12,249 nucleotides of DNA, taken from NCBI GenBank assembly GCA_007128525.1, contig SKXG01000335.1:1-12249 (forward strand). The letters run 5' to 3'. Positions 608-11,552 of this stretch are shown piece by piece. Both the position numbers and the translations under genes were made by a program. Within the stretch, counting starts at the first letter, position 1; the number at the start of each line of letters is the position of its first letter. The notes beneath the pieces were generated by a model. It had not been told where the DNA came from, ran no database searches, and saw only the letters and a program-made list of their open reading frames with translations. Source of the stretch: Pseudomonadales bacterium (lineage in GTDB: Bacteria > Pseudomonadota > Gammaproteobacteria > Pseudomonadales > Azotimanducaceae).

Positions 608-1981
608 TCAGGGCGCCAGATCGTCCAGCAGGATCAGCCCGAAAGGACCGCCACCGCCGACTTCGTCTCTGGCGACTGCGGTGTAGATGCCGCCCGCCTC
701 GACAGTCACGGGCACTGGTCCGATCGCGACATCAACCGTATCTGCCACAGTTACCACGACGTCATAGTCGCCAGGCGCCAGTGACACGTAGCCGGTGTCT
801 GCCGTGAAAGGCACTGCGGTGAATGCCGGATCAAAGTCGGTAAAGTCAGCTGCTGCTGGGACCACATAGAGATCCACCTCAGGCGCGGACGGTGCCCCGT
901 GAACAATCCGGACGCGCGCTTCAGTCGCGATGCGACGGTTGTCATCGACGAGTACGAGCGGTGCGATGTCTGCTGCCAGACCAACGGCGAACACTGAGTA
1001 TTCAAAGCCGGCAACCAGGTCCAGATCCGCATCAATGGCCGCAGGCTCAGTGGTGCCTGTCTCCACGACCTGCACGTTGATCGTCTCCGCCGGCAGCGGC
1101 AGATAACCGGTGAACTCGGGGAAAGCCAGATCGGCAACAGCCGGTGGCGTTACGCCTTCAACCAGAACATCGACGTTAAACGCATCCGGTGAGGCATGAA
1201 TGACTCGGGCCGCGGCACCAGTGTTCTGGTCGAGGATTTCGAAAGCACCTGTACCATCCAGCACGACCAGGCTGATCGGAGCATCACCAGCGCCAGTGTT
1301 CTCCACTGCTGTGATGACCAGATCGGCACCACCAGGGACATCTACCGGGCCGGAATCGAACACCACCGCACTGGCGTCACTGGCTGCAGTCACGCGTATC
1401 CGGTAAGTGCCTTCAGCGACAGTTAACGGTCCCAGGTCTTCGCCGAAGGATGCTGAGCCCAACGGCGTGGCACCGCTCAAGTCGTCTTCCGGAGCCGTCG
1501 CATAAATGTCCACCATCGGGGCGTTGGGCGCTGCATGCACGACGCGCAGTCGCGCTTCATCGGCGTCCAGATCTGCCAGAGGCGCCAGCAGGACCAGCGG
1601 CTCAATGGTACCCCCGCCAGCTTCGCCGATGGCAATCACGGTAATGCGCTCATTGCCGGGCAGGGACAAATCGACCGGGCCGATCACGTCTAGGTTGCCA
1701 CCAGGCACAATGGCTTCAACGCGGACTTCAAGGTCGCCTTCTTCGACTTCGACGAAACCGCTGCCGGCCTTGAAGGGCACATCGGTCAGCAGTGCCTCAC
1801 CACCTGCAAAGACATTGACTGCCGGGGCATCGGCTACGGCGTGCAGCACCTCAAGCTGAGACACAGCCGGGGGCGTGGGTTCGGGAACACTACTCGAACT
1901 GCTGCTGCTACCGCACCCGGCCAGCACGAGGCTGATCGAAAGGGCAGCAGCGAGTTGGGCAAAAAAGTTACGTAATCGCAT
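608..1981 (-). CDS. DUF4397-domain lipoprotein with four tandem modules
   Basis: A 457-residue predicted lipoprotein. Residues 1-23 form a type II signal peptide with lipobox L-A-G-C (Cys23), followed by Gly, seven Ser and a Pro-rich linker. The rest is about four DUF4397 repeats at roughly 43-136, 143-243, 257-345 and 355-454. Each opens with the family signature (LEVLHAVADAPAVNV, RLRVVHAAPNAPMVDIY, ARVIHASPDAFNVDV, VRIVHGAPSAPEVDLY), has a G-Y/F-V/L-x-L/V turn in the middle and ends in a hydrophobic strand before the linker. DUF4397 is a beta-sandwich domain of extracytoplasmic proteins with no established reaction; binding or surface adhesion is a guess. ATG at 1981 has a good AGGAGAGG ribosome site. 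Cys23 is followed by Gly rather than Asp, so outer-membrane sorting is expected. The upstream spacer carries an 11-bp-period repeat array, and an intrinsic terminator follows the gene. Confidence 0.92.
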   Translation of the reverse strand: MRLRNFFAQLAAALSISLVLAGCGSSSSSSSVPEPTPPAVSQLEVLHAVADAPAVNVFAGGEALLTDVPFKAGSGFVEVEEGDLEVRVEAIVPGGNLDVIGPVDLSLPGNERITVIAIGEAGGGTIEPLVLLAPLADLDADEARLRVVHAAPNAPMVDIYATAPEDDLSGATPLGSASFGEDLGPLTVAEGTYRIRVTAASDASAVVFDSGPVDVPGGADLVITAVENTGAGDAPISLVVLDGTGAFEILDQNTGAAARVIHASPDAFNVDVLVEGVTPPAVADLAFPEFTGYLPLPAETINVQVVETGTTEPAAIDADLDLVAGFEYSVFAVGLAADIAPLVLVDDNRRIATEARVRIVHGAPSAPEVDLYVVPAAADFTDFDPAFTAVPFTADTGYVSLAPGDYDVVVTVADTVDVAIGPVPVTVEAGGIYTAVARDEVGGGGPFGLILLDDLAP

Positions 1982-6698: not shown

Positions 6699-6727
6699 TT
6701 GACACTAACAATGCCGCAAACTAAGAC
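6699..6727 (+). promoter_or_regulatory. Candidate sigma-70 promoter of greB
   Basis: A perfect -35 TTGACA (6699-6704) is followed after 17 bp by a weak -10, TAAGAC (6722-6727). Transcription would start near 6734, downstream of the ATG at 6711 and upstream of those at 6750 and 6768. This supports a shorter GreB, though the -10 match is only 3 of 6. Confidence 0.4.
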
Positions 6728-6749
6728 CATCGAGTCGCAGATCCAGTCT

Positions 6750-7265
6750 ATGCCACCAAAACCAGACATGGCTTCACGACGCCCGGCGCCGTACATCACT
6801 CCGGCAGGTCAACAGCGGCTGAACAGCGAGCTGCGTTATCTGTGGAAAGAAAAGCGCCCGGCCGTCACCAAAAAGGTGGCCGAGGCTGCCGCCATGGGCG
6901 ATCGCTCGGAGAATGCCGAGTATATCTACGGCAAGAAGCAATTGCGGGAGATCGACCGACGCATTCGTTATCTGTCCAAGCGCCTGGATGAGGTTGTTGT
7001 CGTAGACCGGACACCACCGGATCAGAACAAGGTGTACTTTGGTGCCTGGGTCAAACTGCTCGATAACGATGGCACCCACAAGTCGTATCGGCTGGTGGGT
7101 TCGGATGAGTTTGACATGCACGAGACGTACATCAGCATCGACTCTGTATTGGCCCGCGCTCTTTTGCAAAAGCGCACTAACGATGTAGTTGAGGTTCGCC
7201 TGCCGGCAGGGTCACAACACTACCAGATCACAGCAGTCTGGTATGGAGAACCAGGGCACTCCTGA
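6750..7265 (+). CDS. greB: Transcription elongation factor GreB
   Basis: A 171-residue Gre factor that enters the RNA polymerase secondary channel and stimulates cleavage of backtracked RNA. The N-terminal coiled coil carries L-R-Y-L-W-K-E-K-R-P-A-V-T-K-K-V (28-43), a form seen in GreB, and its tip G-D-R-S-E-N-A-E-Y (50-58) keeps the acidic residues equivalent to E. coli Asp41 and Glu44 that hold the catalytic magnesium. The FKBP-like C-terminal domain has V-Y-F-G-A-W-V (95-101), Y-R-L-V-G (113-117) and Y-I-S-I-D-S-V-L-A-R-A-L-L (127-139). The start is uncertain: ATGs at 6711, 6750 and 6768 all lack a good ribosome site. I chose 6750 because a candidate promoter would place the transcript start after 6711. 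The frame is open further upstream to 6135, but that stretch is antisense to the neighbouring gene. Family assignment is very secure. Confidence 0.95.
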   Translation: MPPKPDMASRRPAPYITPAGQQRLNSELRYLWKEKRPAVTKKVAEAAAMGDRSENAEYIYGKKQLREIDRRIRYLSKRLDEVVVVDRTPPDQNKVYFGAWVKLLDNDGTHKSYRLVGSDEFDMHETYISIDSVLARALLQKRTNDVVEVRLPAGSQHYQITAVWYGEPGHS

Positions 7266-7294
7266 ACAACCTTAAGCTGAACCAACCCTGAACC
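7262..7294. repeat. CTGAAC direct repeats between greB and the EF-hand gene
   Basis: CTGAACA at 7262 (overlapping the greB stop codon) and CTGAACC at 7277 and 7288, the last two 11 bp apart. The TGAACC element resembles -35 elements of some ECF sigma factors, which would suit autoregulation of the downstream operon, but I find no matching -10 at the right distance. Confidence 0.4.
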
Positions 7295-7312
7295 TTGCGC
7301 GAAAATACTTGC

Positions 7313-7346
7313 AAAAAACCCGGTCTGGCTGCGACAGCCGGCCCGG
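7313..7346 (-). terminator. Hairpin with T-run on the minus strand, opposite to flanking genes
   Basis: A 12-bp stem with one mismatch and one G-T pair (7320-7331 with 7335-7346, loop CGA) is followed on the minus strand by G and TTTTTT (7313-7318). On the plus strand the side after the stem has no T-run, so it is a poor greB terminator. It would stop leftward transcription entering from the EF-hand operon, or be a leader hairpin of that operon. Confidence 0.45.
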
Positions 7347-7387
7347 ACGGCCACGTAAAACTTCCTGACTGAAACAGGAGGTTCACC

Positions 7388-8131
7388 ATGTCACACCGTT
7401 CGAGTTTCACCTTGCTTCGCAGCAGCCTGCTTGGTGCAGGAATGCTGGCCATGGGCGCAGCCTGGGCCGCTGATGCGCCGGCATCGGGCCAGGGCAGCGA
7501 CAATCCAACGTTTCCGATCGATCTCGCACCACTGACGGCCAAGGCTGATGCCCGGTTCGAGCGCCTCGACCAGAGCGGTGATGGCAAGATCACATTGGAA
7601 GCGTTTCTGAGCGCGGACCGTCGAGATCTGCACGGCGTTGCTTCTGAACGCGTTTATGGCGGCCGGGGCGGCGCTCGAGAGCACCGGATGCATGGTCGCC
7701 GCGGTGCCGATGCCGGCAGCCATGAACGTCAGGGCTGGATGGCTCGACGTGCGGAACGGCGCAGTGGCAACGACCGGGCGGAAGCTGCAGAGCGCCGAGA
7801 CAGGTATAGGGCACAGCGCGTCGAACGTCAGGCCGACTGGCAGCAGCGGTTGTTCAGCGCGCTGGATACGGATGGCGACGGCCAGCTCTCCGCAGCAGAA
7901 TTCGCGGCGCTGCCGGACGTGCGCGAACAGCTGCACCGTGAGGCGCTGTTCGAGCGACTCGACCAGAACAACGATGGTGTGCTGGATCGCAGCGAGTTTC
8001 CGCCGCGCATTGCGCGACTGGAGGCCATGGATCTTGACGGTGACGGTCAGGTAACGCGGGATGAAATGCGCCGCTACATGGCCGAACGGCGTGACGATCA
8101 GCGTAGAATGGGGCGGCGCTCGAGAGACTAA
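7388..8131 (+). CDS. Exported EF-hand protein, first gene of the sigma-factor operon
   Basis: A 247-residue protein with a signal peptide (Arg4, hydrophobic core, A-A-W-A-A-D, probable cut near residue 28), hence periplasmic. Four EF-hand-like loops begin at Asp61, Asp160, Asp192 and Asp215. Loops 2 to 4 match D-x-D/N-x-D-G-x-L/V-x-x-x-E with Glu at position 12. Loop 1 (D-Q-S-G-D-G-K-I-T-L-E-A) has Ala at position 12 with Glu at 11, so its calcium affinity is probably altered. The part between (80-150) is very rich in Arg, Glu and Gly, with several His, and may be a charged helix. Calcium binding is expected from the motif. ATG at 7388 has a strong AGGAGG site. The stop lies 8 bp before the ECF sigma gene, so the two are almost certainly co-transcribed; the protein could be a calcium-sensing partner or target of that system. 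Function inferred only. Confidence 0.88.
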   Translation: MSHRSSFTLLRSSLLGAGMLAMGAAWAADAPASGQGSDNPTFPIDLAPLTAKADARFERLDQSGDGKITLEAFLSADRRDLHGVASERVYGGRGGAREHRMHGRRGADAGSHERQGWMARRAERRSGNDRAEAAERRDRYRAQRVERQADWQQRLFSALDTDGDGQLSAAEFAALPDVREQLHREALFERLDQNNDGVLDRSEFPPRIARLEAMDLDGDGQVTRDEMRRYMAERRDDQRRMGRRSRD

Positions 8132-8139
8132 GGCACCGC

Positions 8140-8700
8140 GTGACTGACGCCAGCGACGAGACCCTGATGGCCAGGGTGCAGGAACGGGACCAGCAGGCGT
8201 TCGCGCGCCTGCTGGACCGTCATGCCCAGTCGCTGCGCAATTTCCTGTACCGCTTTAGCCAGAACACGGCGGACGCAGACGAACTCTGCCAGGAAACATT
8301 CCTCCGGGTCTGGCAGCATGCCGCCCGCTGGGAGCCGGGCCGGGTACAGTTCAACACTTGGCTGTTTCGCATCGGCCACAATCTCGCCATCGACCGCCTG
8401 CGCAAGCACCGTGAAACCATCAGCGATCAGCTGCCGGAGCAAAGCGATGAGAGCGCAGAGCTGAGCCAGGCGCTGTCCCGCGAGCAGGCCCGTGACACAC
8501 TGCGGGCGGAGATCGCAAAACTGCCGGAAAGACAGCGTACAGCACTGCTTTTGTGCCATTTTCAGGGAATGTCCTACCAACAAGCGGCGGATATTCTCGA
8601 GGTAAGCGTAGAAGCCTTAGAGTCCTTGATTGCACGCGCCCGACGGCGCCTCAAACAGACCTTGAAACCCCTGGTGAAAGACATCGATATCGCATCATGA
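8140..8700 (+). CDS. ECF (extracytoplasmic function) RNA polymerase sigma factor
   Basis: A 186-residue sigma-70-family protein with only regions 2 and 4, the ECF layout. Region 2 spans about 21-90: F-A-R-L-L-D-R-H, then D-A-D-E-L-C-Q-E-T-F-L-R-V-W (45-58) for core binding, and F-N-T-W-L-F-R-I-G-H-N-L-A-I-D-R-L-R-K-H (71-90) for -10 recognition. An acidic linker (95-110) leads to region 4 (126-175), with L-P-E-R-Q-R-T-A-L-L-L, M-S-Y-Q-Q-A-A-D-I-L-E-V-S-V-E-A-L-E-S-L-I-A-R-A-R-R-R-L as the -35-binding helix-turn-helix. GTG at 8140 is the assumed start, with a weak AAGG site; ATG at 8167 is the alternative, but would trim the usual D-E-x-L-M lead-in. Its stop overlaps the next start (ATGA), which indicates translational coupling to the putative anti-sigma factor. 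It probably drives its own operon. Confidence 0.95.
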   Translation: MTDASDETLMARVQERDQQAFARLLDRHAQSLRNFLYRFSQNTADADELCQETFLRVWQHAARWEPGRVQFNTWLFRIGHNLAIDRLRKHRETISDQLPEQSDESAELSQALSREQARDTLRAEIAKLPERQRTALLLCHFQGMSYQQAADILEVSVEALESLIARARRRLKQTLKPLVKDIDIAS

Positions 8701-9170
8701 GCACAATGACACAAGACCAGTTCGACGCAGCCCTGGACATCTATGGACCAGACCTGCGCCTGTGGCCCTCGGCCCTGCAACAGCCAGCACAACAGCTATT
8801 GCAAAGCTCGGCATCCGCGCAGGCAGCGCTGAGCCTGGCCAAGCGCCTGGATGAGGAGCTCGATGCCAGCCTGCCACCGGCGCCTGCCCGCGGCCTGCCC
8901 TTGCTGAAGGAGCAGATCATGGCCAGGGTCCTGGCCTCCGGACCGCAGACCAGCCTGATTCTGCGCTTCTGGGCCTGGCTGCTGGCCGGCCCACGTCTGA
9001 TGCAGGTGCTGCTGCTGCGTCCGGCGGTGCTGGCGATGATCCCGCTGATTGGCGGCTTCCTGCTCGGTATGAGCGTTGCCGACGTCGGCGGCGCCGATGA
9101 CGACCTGGTTGCGGAAATGGTGTACATGGCCTTCACCGACCGCTTTGAGGGGTATGTCAATGGGCAATAG
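8697..9170 (+). CDS. Putative anti-sigma factor, one-helix membrane protein
   Basis: A 157-residue protein with no name I can give with certainty. The N-terminal part (1-85) is soluble, with Q-F-D-A-A-L-D-I-Y-G-P-D-L-R-L-W-P-S (8-25), a pattern I recall from hypothetical proteins next to ECF sigma and heavy-metal-sensor genes in Proteobacteria. A hydrophobic stretch at about 104-126 (Pro-containing, ending G-G-F-L-L-G) is the one clear membrane helix, followed by a roughly 30-residue acidic tail predicted to be periplasmic. It lacks the H-x3-C-x2-C zinc motif of ZAS anti-sigma factors. ATG at 8697 overlaps the sigma stop as ATGA; ATG at 8706 is an alternative. Position between sigma and sensor genes and topology match CnrY-like anti-sigma factors. 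That role is inference; the gene itself is secure. Confidence 0.72.
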   Translation: MSTMTQDQFDAALDIYGPDLRLWPSALQQPAQQLLQSSASAQAALSLAKRLDEELDASLPPAPARGLPLLKEQIMARVLASGPQTSLILRFWAWLLAGPRLMQVLLLRPAVLAMIPLIGGFLLGMSVADVGGADDDLVAEMVYMAFTDRFEGYVNGQ

Positions 9171-9666
9171 CAAGTGGCTGCTGACAGCTCTGGTGCTGTC
9201 GCTGATCGTGAATCTGGCGCTGGCCGGCTTTCTGCTCGGCCGCAGCAGCAGCCAGCACAGCGGTCAGTGGGGCACGCCCGACCCGGCTGCAGGCTATTTT
9301 CGCCTGATTGGTTTTCTGCCGGAAGAACGACGTGCCGAGCTGCAACCGCTGATCAAGGCGCACTTCGACAACATCCGGCCTGAGATACGCGAGACACGCC
9401 GCCATCTGCGCAGCATGTACGAGCAGCTCAACGCCGAGACCCTCGACAGCGCGAAGCTCGAACGCGACCTGACGGCGCTCCGGCAACTGCTCGGCACGAC
9501 GCAGGAAGCCTCACACCAGACTTTCGTTGATCTGGTTCGCCAGATGTCTCCGGAAGAGCGGCAGCAATTGGCCGAAGCGATGCGGCGTCCGCGTGACGCC
9601 GAACAGGATCGCCAACGCGGCACGCGACCGCCGCCACCCGCAGCTGACGGCGACACCGGCAGCTAG
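9160..9666 (+). CDS. Periplasmic heavy-metal-sensor-like protein (Metal_resist / CnrX-like)
   Basis: A 168-residue protein with an uncleaved-looking N-terminal helix (6-27, W-L-L-T-A-L-V-L to F-L-L-G-R) that should anchor it with the rest in the periplasm. The body (50-142) is almost all helix, rich in Arg, Glu and Leu: L-P-E-E-R-R-A-E-L-Q-P-L-I-K-A-H-F (53-69), I-R-E-T-R-R-H-L-R-S-M-Y (76-87), a third helix to L-G-T-T-Q, then H119 to M-S-P-E-E-R-Q-Q-L-A-E (129-139). This is the shape of the Metal_resist family that includes CnrX, and resembles Spy/CpxP-type helical hairpins. Possible metal ligands are His68, His82, His119, Met86 and Met129, none proven. A Pro-rich tail ends it. ATG at 9160 gives the better spacing from GAGGGG; ATG at 9154 is also possible. 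The start overlaps the preceding gene by 11 bp. It is the last gene of the operon. Confidence 0.82.
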   Translation: MGNSKWLLTALVLSLIVNLALAGFLLGRSSSQHSGQWGTPDPAAGYFRLIGFLPEERRAELQPLIKAHFDNIRPEIRETRRHLRSMYEQLNAETLDSAKLERDLTALRQLLGTTQEASHQTFVDLVRQMSPEERQQLAEAMRRPRDAEQDRQRGTRPPPPAADGDTGS

Positions 9667-9687
9667 GGTACCTCTACACGGCGGGGA

Positions 9688-10263
9688 TCAGCGCTCAGAA
9701 TCCGGCAGAAAGACCGGCTGCGCCGGTTCCAGCTCGCCAAGAAACGCCGCCAGAGAATCCGACACCTGCCGCACGGGCTTGTAACCGGGCTTCTCCAACA
9801 ATACCGCGCCGGTGTCATTCTCCACACTCAGAAAGAGGTCAGAGTTCGGTTCGGTACAGGCAAAGAACACCGAGTACCCAACACCTGCCTGGCGCTTGGC
9901 GAGCGCGTGGCCGATCAGGTTCTCGATGAGCCGTTCCACATCCTGCGGATTCCACAACTGGATCAGGCTGACGTGGCCCTCGGGGGCCGTCATTTCCAGG
10001 CCACCGGACCAATAACGCCCGAAGTACGCCTTGATGTCCGGGTGAATCTCCAGCTCCAACGCCCGCTCCAGGCCGGCAAAGTCATCAGCCAGCGTGCGAG
10101 GCAGTGGGCGCCAGGGCACCAGCGCCTCGCCACCGGCCTGCTGCTCCGGGGGGCCAATTTCACAGGGCGATCGCCAGTCCGGGTCATAAGGCTCATAGAG
10201 CTGCGGCCAACGGGCCAGATAGCGCTCAACCAGCGCATCGAGTTGCTGTTCTACCTCTCGCAT
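9688..10263 (-). CDS. syd: SecY-interacting protein Syd
   Basis: A 191-residue protein matching the Syd family, cytosolic proteins bound to SecY that in E. coli help recognise faulty SecYEG. Similar segments in order are S-P-C-E-I-G (32-37), W-R-P-L-P-R (51-56), L-E-R-A-L-E-L-E-I-H-P-D-I-K-A-Y-F (66-81), V-S-L-I-Q-L-W-N-P-Q-D (98-108), E-N-L-I-G-H-A-L-A-K-R (114-124) and F-F-A-C-T (133-137), ending with L-A-A-F-L-G-E-L. The E. coli protein is about 180 residues, so length is normal. The frame is open upstream to 10356, but that would lie in aroA; ATG at 10263 fits the family start, though only a weak GCGGG precedes it. It is head to head with aroA at 17 bp and convergent with the sensor gene, 21 bp away. 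Confidence in the family is high. Confidence 0.93.
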   Translation of the reverse strand: MREVEQQLDALVERYLARWPQLYEPYDPDWRSPCEIGPPEQQAGGEALVPWRPLPRTLADDFAGLERALELEIHPDIKAYFGRYWSGGLEMTAPEGHVSLIQLWNPQDVERLIENLIGHALAKRQAGVGYSVFFACTEPNSDLFLSVENDTGAVLLEKPGYKPVRQVSDSLAAFLGELEPAQPVFLPDSER

Positions 10264-10280
10264 CCCGCTAAGATACACAA

Positions 10281-11552
10281 ATGCAAAGCCTGACACTGCA
10301 ACCGATCCGACACGCCCAGGGCACCGTGCGCCTGCCGGGCTCGAAAAGTATCTCAAACCGCGCGCTGCTGCTCGCGGCGCTGGCCAACGGTGACACCCGC
10401 ATCAGCAACCTGCTGCGCAGCGATGACACCAACTACATGCTGCGGGCGTTGCGCCAGCTTGGGGTCACGGTACGCGAGCATGGCGACGACTGGGTGGTGA
10501 AGGGGCATGGTGGTCCGCTGATACGTACAAACGAACAGGTCGAGCTGCAGCTGGGCATGGCTGGCACCGCTTATCGACCATTGGTAGCAGCGCTGTGCCT
10601 GGGACAGGGCGACTTTAGCTTGCAGGGCAACGCCCGCATGCGGGAACGCCCGATTGGTCATCTGGTAGATGCGCTGCGCGAGCTGGGCGCCGACATTCGC
10701 TACCTGGAGAATGACGGCTTTCCGCCTGTCGCCGTTCGGGGTACCGGCCTGACCGGCGGACAGACCCGGATTGCCGGCAACATTTCCAGCCAATTTCTGA
10801 CAGCGCTACTAATGGCGCTACCGCTGGCCGACAAGCCCACTCGCGTGGAGATCATCGGCGAGCTGGTGTCGAAACCCTACATCGACATCACGCTCAACCT
10901 GATGGCCCGTTTCGGTGTAGAGGTCTCACACCAGGACTACCAAGTGTTCGATGTTCCGGTCTCACCCTATCAGTCACCGGGGCGCTTCCTGGTCGAGGGT
11001 GATGCGTCCTCTGCCAGCTACTTTCTGGCAGCCGGGGCCATCAGCGGGCCGGTGCGGGTCGAGGGCCTGGGCCGCGACAGCATTCAGGGGGACACCGCCT
11101 TCGTCGAAGTGCTCCAGGCCATGGGCGCCAAAATCGACGTTGGTGAGGACTACATTGAAGTTGCCAGCGGCGCACTAAAAGGCGTAGACCTGGATCTCAA
11201 CGCCATCCCGGATGCGGCCATGACGCTGGCCGTGCTGGCGCTGTTCGCCGAAGGTCCAACCCGCATCCGGAACATCTACAACTGGCGGGTGAAGGAGACG
11301 GACCGGCTGCATGCCATGGCCACTGAGCTGCGCAAGCTCGGCGCCACTGTGGAAGAAGGCCGGGATTACCTGGTCATCGAGCCGCCAACGGAACTGCAAC
11401 CGGCGGAAATCGAGACGTACGACGACCATCGCGTCGCGATGTGTTTCTCACTGGCAGCGCTCGGCGGCGTTCCGGTCACCATCCTGGACCCGGGCTGCGT
11501 GGCCAAAACCTTTCCGGACTATTTCGAGCGCTTTGCCGAGATCTGTGCCTGA
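10281..11552 (+). CDS. aroA: 3-phosphoshikimate 1-carboxyvinyltransferase (EPSP synthase)
   Basis: A 423-residue monofunctional EPSP synthase, the shikimate-pathway step that joins phosphoenolpyruvate to shikimate 3-phosphate; it is close to E. coli AroA along its length. Substrate residues by E. coli equivalence are present: L-P-G-S-K-S with Lys22, Arg123, S-S-Q with Gln171, I-P-D-A-A-M with Asp311, K-E-T-D-R-L with Glu339 and Arg342, D-D-H-R with Arg384 and A-K-T-F-P with Lys409. Gly95, Thr96 and Pro100 of the PEP/glyphosate loop are the usual class I residues, but the near-invariant Asn before A-G-T is Met93 ([10 protein letters not shown]). ATG at 10281 has only a weak site (AAGA) and lies 17 bp from the divergent syd start, so its promoter must lie inside syd. 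Its last 34 bp overlap the convergent methyltransferase gene. No fusion to tyrA or cmk is seen. Confidence 0.97.

Follow-up and report, generated by a model that had tools for sequence, protein, structure and literature searches.

A putative membrane-tethered ECF sigma factor module with a class I-like anti-sigma candidate and a CnrX/CpxP-fold partner, in an Azotimanducaceae contig and across the Proteobacteria

Most of the numerous extracytoplasmic function (ECF) sigma factors still lack a known signal, anti-sigma factor or set of targets. In the CnrYXH system of Cupriavidus metallidurans, whose gene order differs from that described below, a sigma factor is combined with a one-helix anti-sigma factor and the membrane-anchored periplasmic protein CnrX, and the RpoE system has RseB and an anti-sigma factor, RseA, with a periplasmic part of its own. 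A further circuit was published in 2026 for Caulobacter vibrioides: in the sections of that report drawn on here, SigV raises cabp expression, cabp and sigV respond to calcium limitation and acid, and the link between CaBP and SigV is drawn as a question mark, its membrane part unknown (PMC13171946; this and the other papers cited are used in part). Here we consider a module of four genes in a 12,249-nucleotide stretch of DNA, hereafter the window, which is the entire contig C147 of a draft genome (2.6 Mb, 73% complete) of a Pseudomonadales bacterium of the family Azotimanducaceae. The genes encode an exported EF-hand protein, an ECF sigma factor, a putative anti-sigma factor that we call ANT and a Metal_resist protein that we call MR (Table 1). 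The reading that we consider probable, if not assured, is that they form a membrane-tethered, autoregulated ECF system in which a class I-like anti-sigma factor works with a CnrX/CpxP-fold co-sensor.

The four genes share one orientation, with an 8-nt gap, a 4-nt ATGA overlap and an 11-nt overlap at their junctions, an arrangement that the initial annotation had described and that the coordinates confirm (gene starts were assigned throughout by rule of thumb). The kinds of protein proposed there, namely an exported EF-hand protein, an ECF sigma factor, a one-helix membrane protein and an N-terminally anchored helical protein, are likewise borne out by Pfam, by AlphaFold2 and by inspection of the N-terminus by eye. 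Family assignments rest on Pfam and NCBIfam profile scans of the window's proteins. The sigma factor matches Sigma70_r2 (E 2.9e-21) and Sigma70_r4_2 (E 5.6e-17), and its best NCBIfam model, NF004113, scores 195.5 bits, slightly below the cut-off of 208, which the sigma factor of a Caulobacter relative exceeds with 291.6 bits.

Table 1. Positions of the module's features, with one outlying gene of the window
Feature	Position	Strand	Details and basis
Predicted promoter of the module's own sigma factor	7331..7357	+	GCGACAG (7331-7337), 16 nt, CGTA (7354-7357); 30 nt upstream of the EF-hand start codon; upstream-region comparison
Exported EF-hand protein, 247 aa	7388..8131	+	Pfam; N-terminus signal-peptide-like by eye
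ECF sigma factor, 186 aa, GTG start	8140..8700	+	Pfam Sigma70_r2 and r4_2
ANT, putative anti-sigma factor, 157 aa	8697..9170	+	AlphaFold2: bundle of three cytosolic helices, then a fourth; single membrane helix at 101-129; short tail in the periplasm; carries the motif YG-x(5)-WP
MR, periplasmic helical hairpin anchored by its N-terminus, putative co-sensor	9160..9666	+	Metal_resist; CnrX/CpxP/Spy/ZraP fold
Lipoprotein-like protein, four DUF4397 stretches	608..1981	-	Pfam

The order of these genes is widely conserved. Relatives were tracked by codes (G for genomes, L for loci, f for families, g for genera). A search with the single ANT sequence matched 20 of 58 genomes, the window's own included, and these were 20 of the 37 genomes in the window's family and none of the 21 from other families of the order. 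Around 20 non-own family matches, the order EF-hand, sigma, ANT, MR was present in 19; the exception (L041) is a weak match within a 629-aa frame with no module, and the EF-hand protein of L031 was recognised by its loops only. In relatives the module genes mostly overlap or sit within tens of bases of each other, with few gaps of 100-210 nt. An ANT profile, with the own genome counted each time, extended the matches to 126 of 200 family genomes in 33 of 37 genera, to 6 of 274 genomes of the class and to 53 of 398 of the phylum. From these searches we assembled 60 distant loci (55 non-own places from the phylum search and five from the class search), none from the window's family: 39 carry all four genes and eight carry sigma, ANT and MR with no EF-hand gene within 1.3 kb, the remainder comprising three without MR, five with sigma and ANT only and five with ANT only. 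Wider profiles, applied again to the 13 loci that lack MR, detected none there.

A second set was reached from the sigma factor instead, as the best 80 of 555 confirmed stretches from a sigma-alignment scan of named genomes; it was chosen by likeness to Caulobacter-family sigma factors, and its counts are not natural frequencies. It includes Caulobacter, Brevundimonas, Phenylobacterium, Asticcacaulis, Mesorhizobium, Rhizobium, Sphingomonas, Burkholderia, Paraburkholderia, Cupriavidus and Pseudomonas. All four genes are found at 40 of these loci, among them three Caulobacter records (L324, L325 and L346), and sigma, ANT and MR at 35; two have sigma and ANT, one has EF-hand, sigma and ANT, one has sigma only, and L337, at a contig end, is unclassified. 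The initial annotation had called for a search of the order across the Proteobacteria and named confinement to close relatives as one part of the result that would refute its proposal. That case did not occur: the order is present at 19 of 20 family loci and at 39 of 60 loci in other families, and conservation limited to close relatives is therefore excluded. With this recurrence the arrangement is also more than a chance one.

The conserved order is accompanied by a promoter-like motif, GCGAC(A/G)G-N16-CGT(A/T), common to the regions upstream of the EF-hand gene and absent from the initial annotation, whereas no sigma-70-type promoter was found in 7200-9750 of the window. In a strict form (CGAC(A/G)G, 15-17 nt, CGT, within 250 nt upstream of the first gene, or of sigma where no EF-hand gene was found) it occurs in 51 of 67 upstream regions. 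Besides the window's own, these belong to 17 of 19 family relatives, 32 of 39 distant four-gene modules and one of eight modules that lack an EF-hand gene. Of the 51 spacers, 45 measure 16 nt and six 17 nt. As to the two family relatives without the strict form, L033 by eye shows a variant that differs by one letter, and the gene start of L024 is probably misplaced. The second word is CGTA in the window's family and mostly CGTT in the Caulobacter class. Among the sigma-selected loci, 74 of 80 have the motif in the 1.3 kb upstream, compared with 7 of 80 for the reversed and 12 of 70 for the downstream controls. The Caulobacter cabp promoter, deduced from a mapped start, is given as GGAAA, 13 nt, CGTTCA (PMC13171946), and its spacing matches that expected of CGACGGA-N15-CGTT. 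A common motif ahead of the first gene of a sigma factor operon looks like autoregulation; these observations therefore suggest that the operon is autoregulated through the shared motif, which the module's own sigma factor would recognise.

The case for ANT as an anti-sigma factor is structural. ANT matches no Pfam or NCBIfam family at E up to 1, and a direct protein search of 5.8 billion proteins returned 651 candidates with ANT itself as the sole match. The AlphaFold2 model has helices at residues 6-16, 25-37, 39-58 and 68-81 ahead of the membrane helix, which is hydrophobic by eye and is followed by a shorter helix; the predicted local distance difference test score is 94-98 for residues 1-60 and about 70-77 for residues 61-80. 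Class I anti-sigma domains (ASDI) are laid out as an N-terminal three-helix bundle, a linker and a fourth helix, whereas CnrY is a two-helix class II anti-sigma factor (PMC7406223). The ANT model, with three bundled helices and a fourth before the membrane, follows the ASDI layout, and modelled alone it presents four cytosolic helices against the two-helix domain of class II. Its closest structural match is RseA, albeit a weak one, and Foldseek gave no match at E <= 0.001 with the model of either ANT or MR. As modelled, ANT resembles class I anti-sigma domains rather than CnrY, and we infer that it binds the sigma factor as its anti-sigma factor.

MR is a Metal_resist protein (PF13801, E 2.9e-20, 73.1 bits against a curated cut-off of 29.2), as is the MR of the Caulobacter relative L117 (58.1 bits). 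Its AlphaFold2 model shows an N-terminal helix at residues 3-31 that leads into a helical hairpin, and the closest solved folds are those of CnrX. This supports the initial proposal that the sigma factor belongs to a trans-envelope module whose periplasmic protein is anchored and has the CnrX fold. It also invites the view that the module is a metal resistance sensor of the CnrYXH type, in which MR would bind nickel, cobalt, zinc or copper and release the sigma factor for metal efflux, and the common operon of sigma factor, putative anti-sigma factor and CnrX-fold protein, together with the resistance-nodulation-division (RND) adaptors among the predicted targets, fits such a view. However, the His-Met pair of metal ligands is not retained. 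In CnrX the pair is presumably His119 and Met123; in the alignment with NccX, MR has T121 and L125 opposite the corresponding His and Met. Those columns contain His in 0 of 47 sequences and Met in one of 47, while MR His119 is kept in just 25 of 47. In addition, ANT is class I-like rather than CnrY-like and no metal pump is adjacent. CnrX-type metal sensing by MR is rejected on the His-Met pair, and a metal resistance sensor of the CnrYXH type is highly improbable. CnrYXH as a model for the locus, proposed at the outset, is supported for the fourth protein and not supported for CnrY as a guide to the anti-sigma factor. MR models as a CnrX/CpxP hairpin lacking the CnrX His-Met pair, and its putative role is that of a periplasmic sensing partner. 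One mode of the favoured system is that proteins misfolded or damaged in the envelope titrate MR away, much as with CpxP or Spy, and that MR thereby releases ANT. The fold is compatible with such a metal-free damage sensor, but by itself it reveals no signal, and MR is anchored in the membrane, unlike CpxP and Spy; we regard this mode as possible but doubtful.

It is informative to examine the first gene of the module in light of its exchangeability. The EF-hand protein contains four EF-hand stretches (Pfam EF-hand_5, E 5.7e-22), with calcium-type loops at residues 61, 160, 192 and 215, of which three are canonical and have Glu at position 12, the residue-61 loop having Ala there; across 62 module EF-hand proteins, Glu12 is present in 206 of 208 pattern-selected loops. 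A sub-threshold NCBIfam match (37.9 against a cut-off of 135) raised the idea of lanthanide binding as in lanmodulin. This is disfavoured, since the module proteins mostly have Ala or Thr at loop position 2 and not the Pro of lanmodulin loops. Separately, the EF-hand proteins of the distant family f218 (L107-L109) have extended tails rich in Gly, Met and His, which might bind copper or other metals. Canonical loops, and an EF-hand gene immediately upstream of sigma at 19 of 20 family matches, 42 of 60 distant loci and 41 of 80 sigma-selected loci, would be expected of a calcium relay in which the EF-hand protein is the primary sensor and its loading with or loss of calcium alters its contact with MR or ANT, freeing the sigma factor. 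The observations that EGTA induces cabp and that CaBP affects sigV expression (PMC13171946) agree with this.

Yet the same motif and the sigma-ANT-MR genes also occur with other first genes. At 18 of 80 sigma-selected loci a gene for a WXXGXW-repeat protein lies between the motif and sigma in place of the EF-hand gene, an order verified in all 18, which come from Burkholderia, Paraburkholderia, Caballeronia, Cupriavidus, Achromobacter and Pseudomonas records; the two such proteins tested both match PF12779 and have an exported-looking N-terminus. At 21 of 80 neither gene was found upstream, one of these (L337) having just 207 nt of upstream sequence. As the first gene varies behind the same motif, the core is sigma-ANT-MR and the constant part is motif, sigma, ANT and MR; an exchangeable first gene is in turn rather a target or accessory than an indispensable sensor. 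In the published work, moreover, the response of the cabp promoter to EGTA in M2G was similar in the wild type and in a cabp deletion (PMC13171946). A calcium relay is thus unlikely, and the EF-hand protein is more likely an output or accessory than an obligate sensor; of the two roles first suggested for it, output stands as an option and necessary sensor partner is disfavoured. On the favoured reading, calcium enters the module at least via the EF-hand product.

If the sigma factor reads the motif, then copies elsewhere should point to its regulon, whose membership is predicted here from motif sites. Their surroundings were inspected except at C436 (own genome), G019:C224, G012:C45 and one non-operon site, G637:C3. 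With a 16-nt spacer and CGTA, the own genome has 12 sites. The operon's own copy scores 19.2. Three score higher: C404, the top (26.0), has no clear gene; C354 (20.6) lies within an opposite frame, 175 nt ahead of an acyl-CoA dehydrogenase-like gene by eye; and C430 (20.2) lies 13 nt ahead of an ATP-binding cassette (ABC) ATPase gene followed by a MacA-like adaptor. Lower sites precede a TolC gene (C282, 17.1), a short exported-looking frame (C144, 15.1) and, at 132 nt, an RND adaptor with an RND pump-like gene behind it (C116, 10.4), the last scoring about the same as two intragenic sites (C314 and C333). The C404 copy, around 4960 (L197, L211), is flanked by an esterase-like frame on one side and convergent ABC transporter genes on the other; a small RNA is possible there.

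In 34 genomes including the own, a stricter pattern gave 32 hits: three are the operon, two lie about 10 nt ahead of macA, one precedes an RpoS-like gene (by eye) and another a gene whose product fits no family. The majority of the other hits are inside frames or have no convincing downstream gene. The family-less protein (L210, in G002) has 400 aa and no Pfam family, begins with a membrane-helix-like stretch reminiscent of MR, and is preceded at 68 nt by an intergenic motif. Among the seven closest macA genes, four have motif scores of 11-21, on a scale where 99% of random 300-nt stretches score below 10, and two of these four (G007 and G019) came to light only in this follow-up; the TolC genes of G006, G012, G017 and G005 and the adaptor genes of G004 and G020 also score above 10, some at 270-490 nt. 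The MacA proteins L217 and L213 (of G006 and G017) have an extra C-terminal stretch, which in L217 is LTXXQ (Spy/CpxP)-like, below the cut-off. With the CGTT pattern, 11 genomes of other families gave 56 hits, many of them intragenic; among those at gene starts, two genomes of g364 (a genus of another class, Brevundimonas by inference) have HlyD-type adaptors behind the motif, G664 and G637 have DUF1800 genes there, and G624 has an LTXXQ protein. Three g364 genomes have the motif ahead of one gene whose product, tested once, matches a TonB-receptor plug just below the cut-off. Overall, 7 of about 107 non-operon hits precede tripartite efflux parts, or about five independent cases with orthologous pairs merged, against a rough expectation of 0.06 (108 hits, assumed gene numbers, and a gene class picked after seeing the hits). 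Since the motif stands ahead of some RND and MacA adaptors and TolC elsewhere, tripartite efflux is the predicted, and likely, output of the module. The earlier remark that no efflux pump is beside the module is right locally; elsewhere in the genome the motif precedes some efflux genes.

Several observations weigh against this picture. Most TolC and adaptor genes tested in relatives do not score above 10, and in the window's family the motif is not enriched over whole genomes (33 hits against 114 reversed; 32 against 55). Seven Caulobacter-family genomes have 33 hits, six of them the operon, against one for the reversed control, a contrast that is partly compositional because the reversed control has fewer CpG steps; two f229 genomes have 11 against 13 and two f200 genomes 12 against 7. 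In Caulobacter itself, a separate experiment saw weaker EGTA induction in the cabp mutant (PMC13171946). It is also worth considering that the four genes are merely neighbours by descent and ANT no anti-sigma factor. A GreB gene (6714-7265) directly precedes the module and Syd and AroA genes (9688-11552) directly follow it; at the 19 family loci GreB is nearby in eight (ending about 36-72 nt before the EF-hand start in seven), Syd in 13 and AroA in 14. That Syd and AroA also remain close, and that ANT has no sequence match to any anti-sigma family, would suit descent alone. But the order and motif persist in other classes, the module genes often overlap and the topology of ANT is class I-like, all of which leaves mere neighbourhood with hardly any probability.

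For the favoured membrane-tethered system, we envisage that at rest the N-terminal class I-like domain of ANT would keep the sigma factor at the inner membrane, while MR, anchored beside ANT, would keep ANT engaged as its periplasmic sensing partner. An envelope signal, maybe low calcium, acid or envelope damage and probably not nickel or cobalt, would strike MR, the short periplasmic tail of ANT, or both, and free the sigma factor. Once freed, it would read the motif, and the entire operon would be transcribed from upstream of the EF-hand gene, a positive feedback on which the extra ANT and MR would act as a brake. It would also drive a small set of envelope genes, notably tripartite efflux adaptors and TolC, and the EF-hand product would serve as an induced periplasmic calcium binder, mainly an output, possibly feeding back.

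More tentatively, and with the balance of probability somewhat against it, one can imagine a widespread envelope stress pathway of the Proteobacteria, so far undescribed in open PMC papers, that unites a class I-like anti-sigma factor, a metal-free CnrX/CpxP-fold co-sensor, a dedicated promoter, a regulon spanning periplasmic proteins and components of tripartite efflux, and an exchangeable first gene, and that supplies the missing membrane link of CaBP-SigV. One ECF group would gain a candidate anti-sigma family with no Pfam match, a co-sensor, a directly testable promoter motif and a predicted output, and envelope sensing would be tied to efflux pump expression in bacteria of several classes.

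Compared with known systems, the module shares with CnrYXH the joint encoding of a sigma factor, a one-helix putative anti-sigma factor and an anchored CnrX-fold periplasmic protein; it differs in its additional EF-hand gene, in a class I-like rather than class II domain, in lacking the CnrX His-Met pair and in having no adjacent efflux operon. With RpoE-RseA it shares, in ANT, a predicted three-helix bundle and fourth helix followed by one membrane helix, although there is no sequence match, the tail of ANT is short and the module has a separate MR. The RpoE8 operon of Azospirillum brasilense, upregulated on RpoE6 overexpression, likewise combines a sigma factor, a hypothetical protein and a periplasmic heavy metal sensor, with no EF-hand gene mentioned in the sections drawn on (PMC12826043). 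The Sinorhizobium ECF26 (RpoE1/E4) and ECF29 (RpoE8) operons, as far as the sections drawn on describe them, have other partner genes and were set aside. The closest likeness is to CaBP-SigV, in which an exported EF-hand gene also lies directly upstream of an ECF sigma gene behind an ECF-type promoter motif and mutual positive regulation has been published; the sections drawn on describe two genes that are transcribed separately, with no MR and no CGAC part in the -35 element (PMC13171946). The same layout is present in the three Caulobacter records, and the C. vibrioides control genome has a PF13801 match somewhere in the genome. Judged through these other Caulobacter records, the CaBP-SigV circuit is probably the same system as the four-gene module, and ANT and MR offer it concrete candidates for its missing membrane link.

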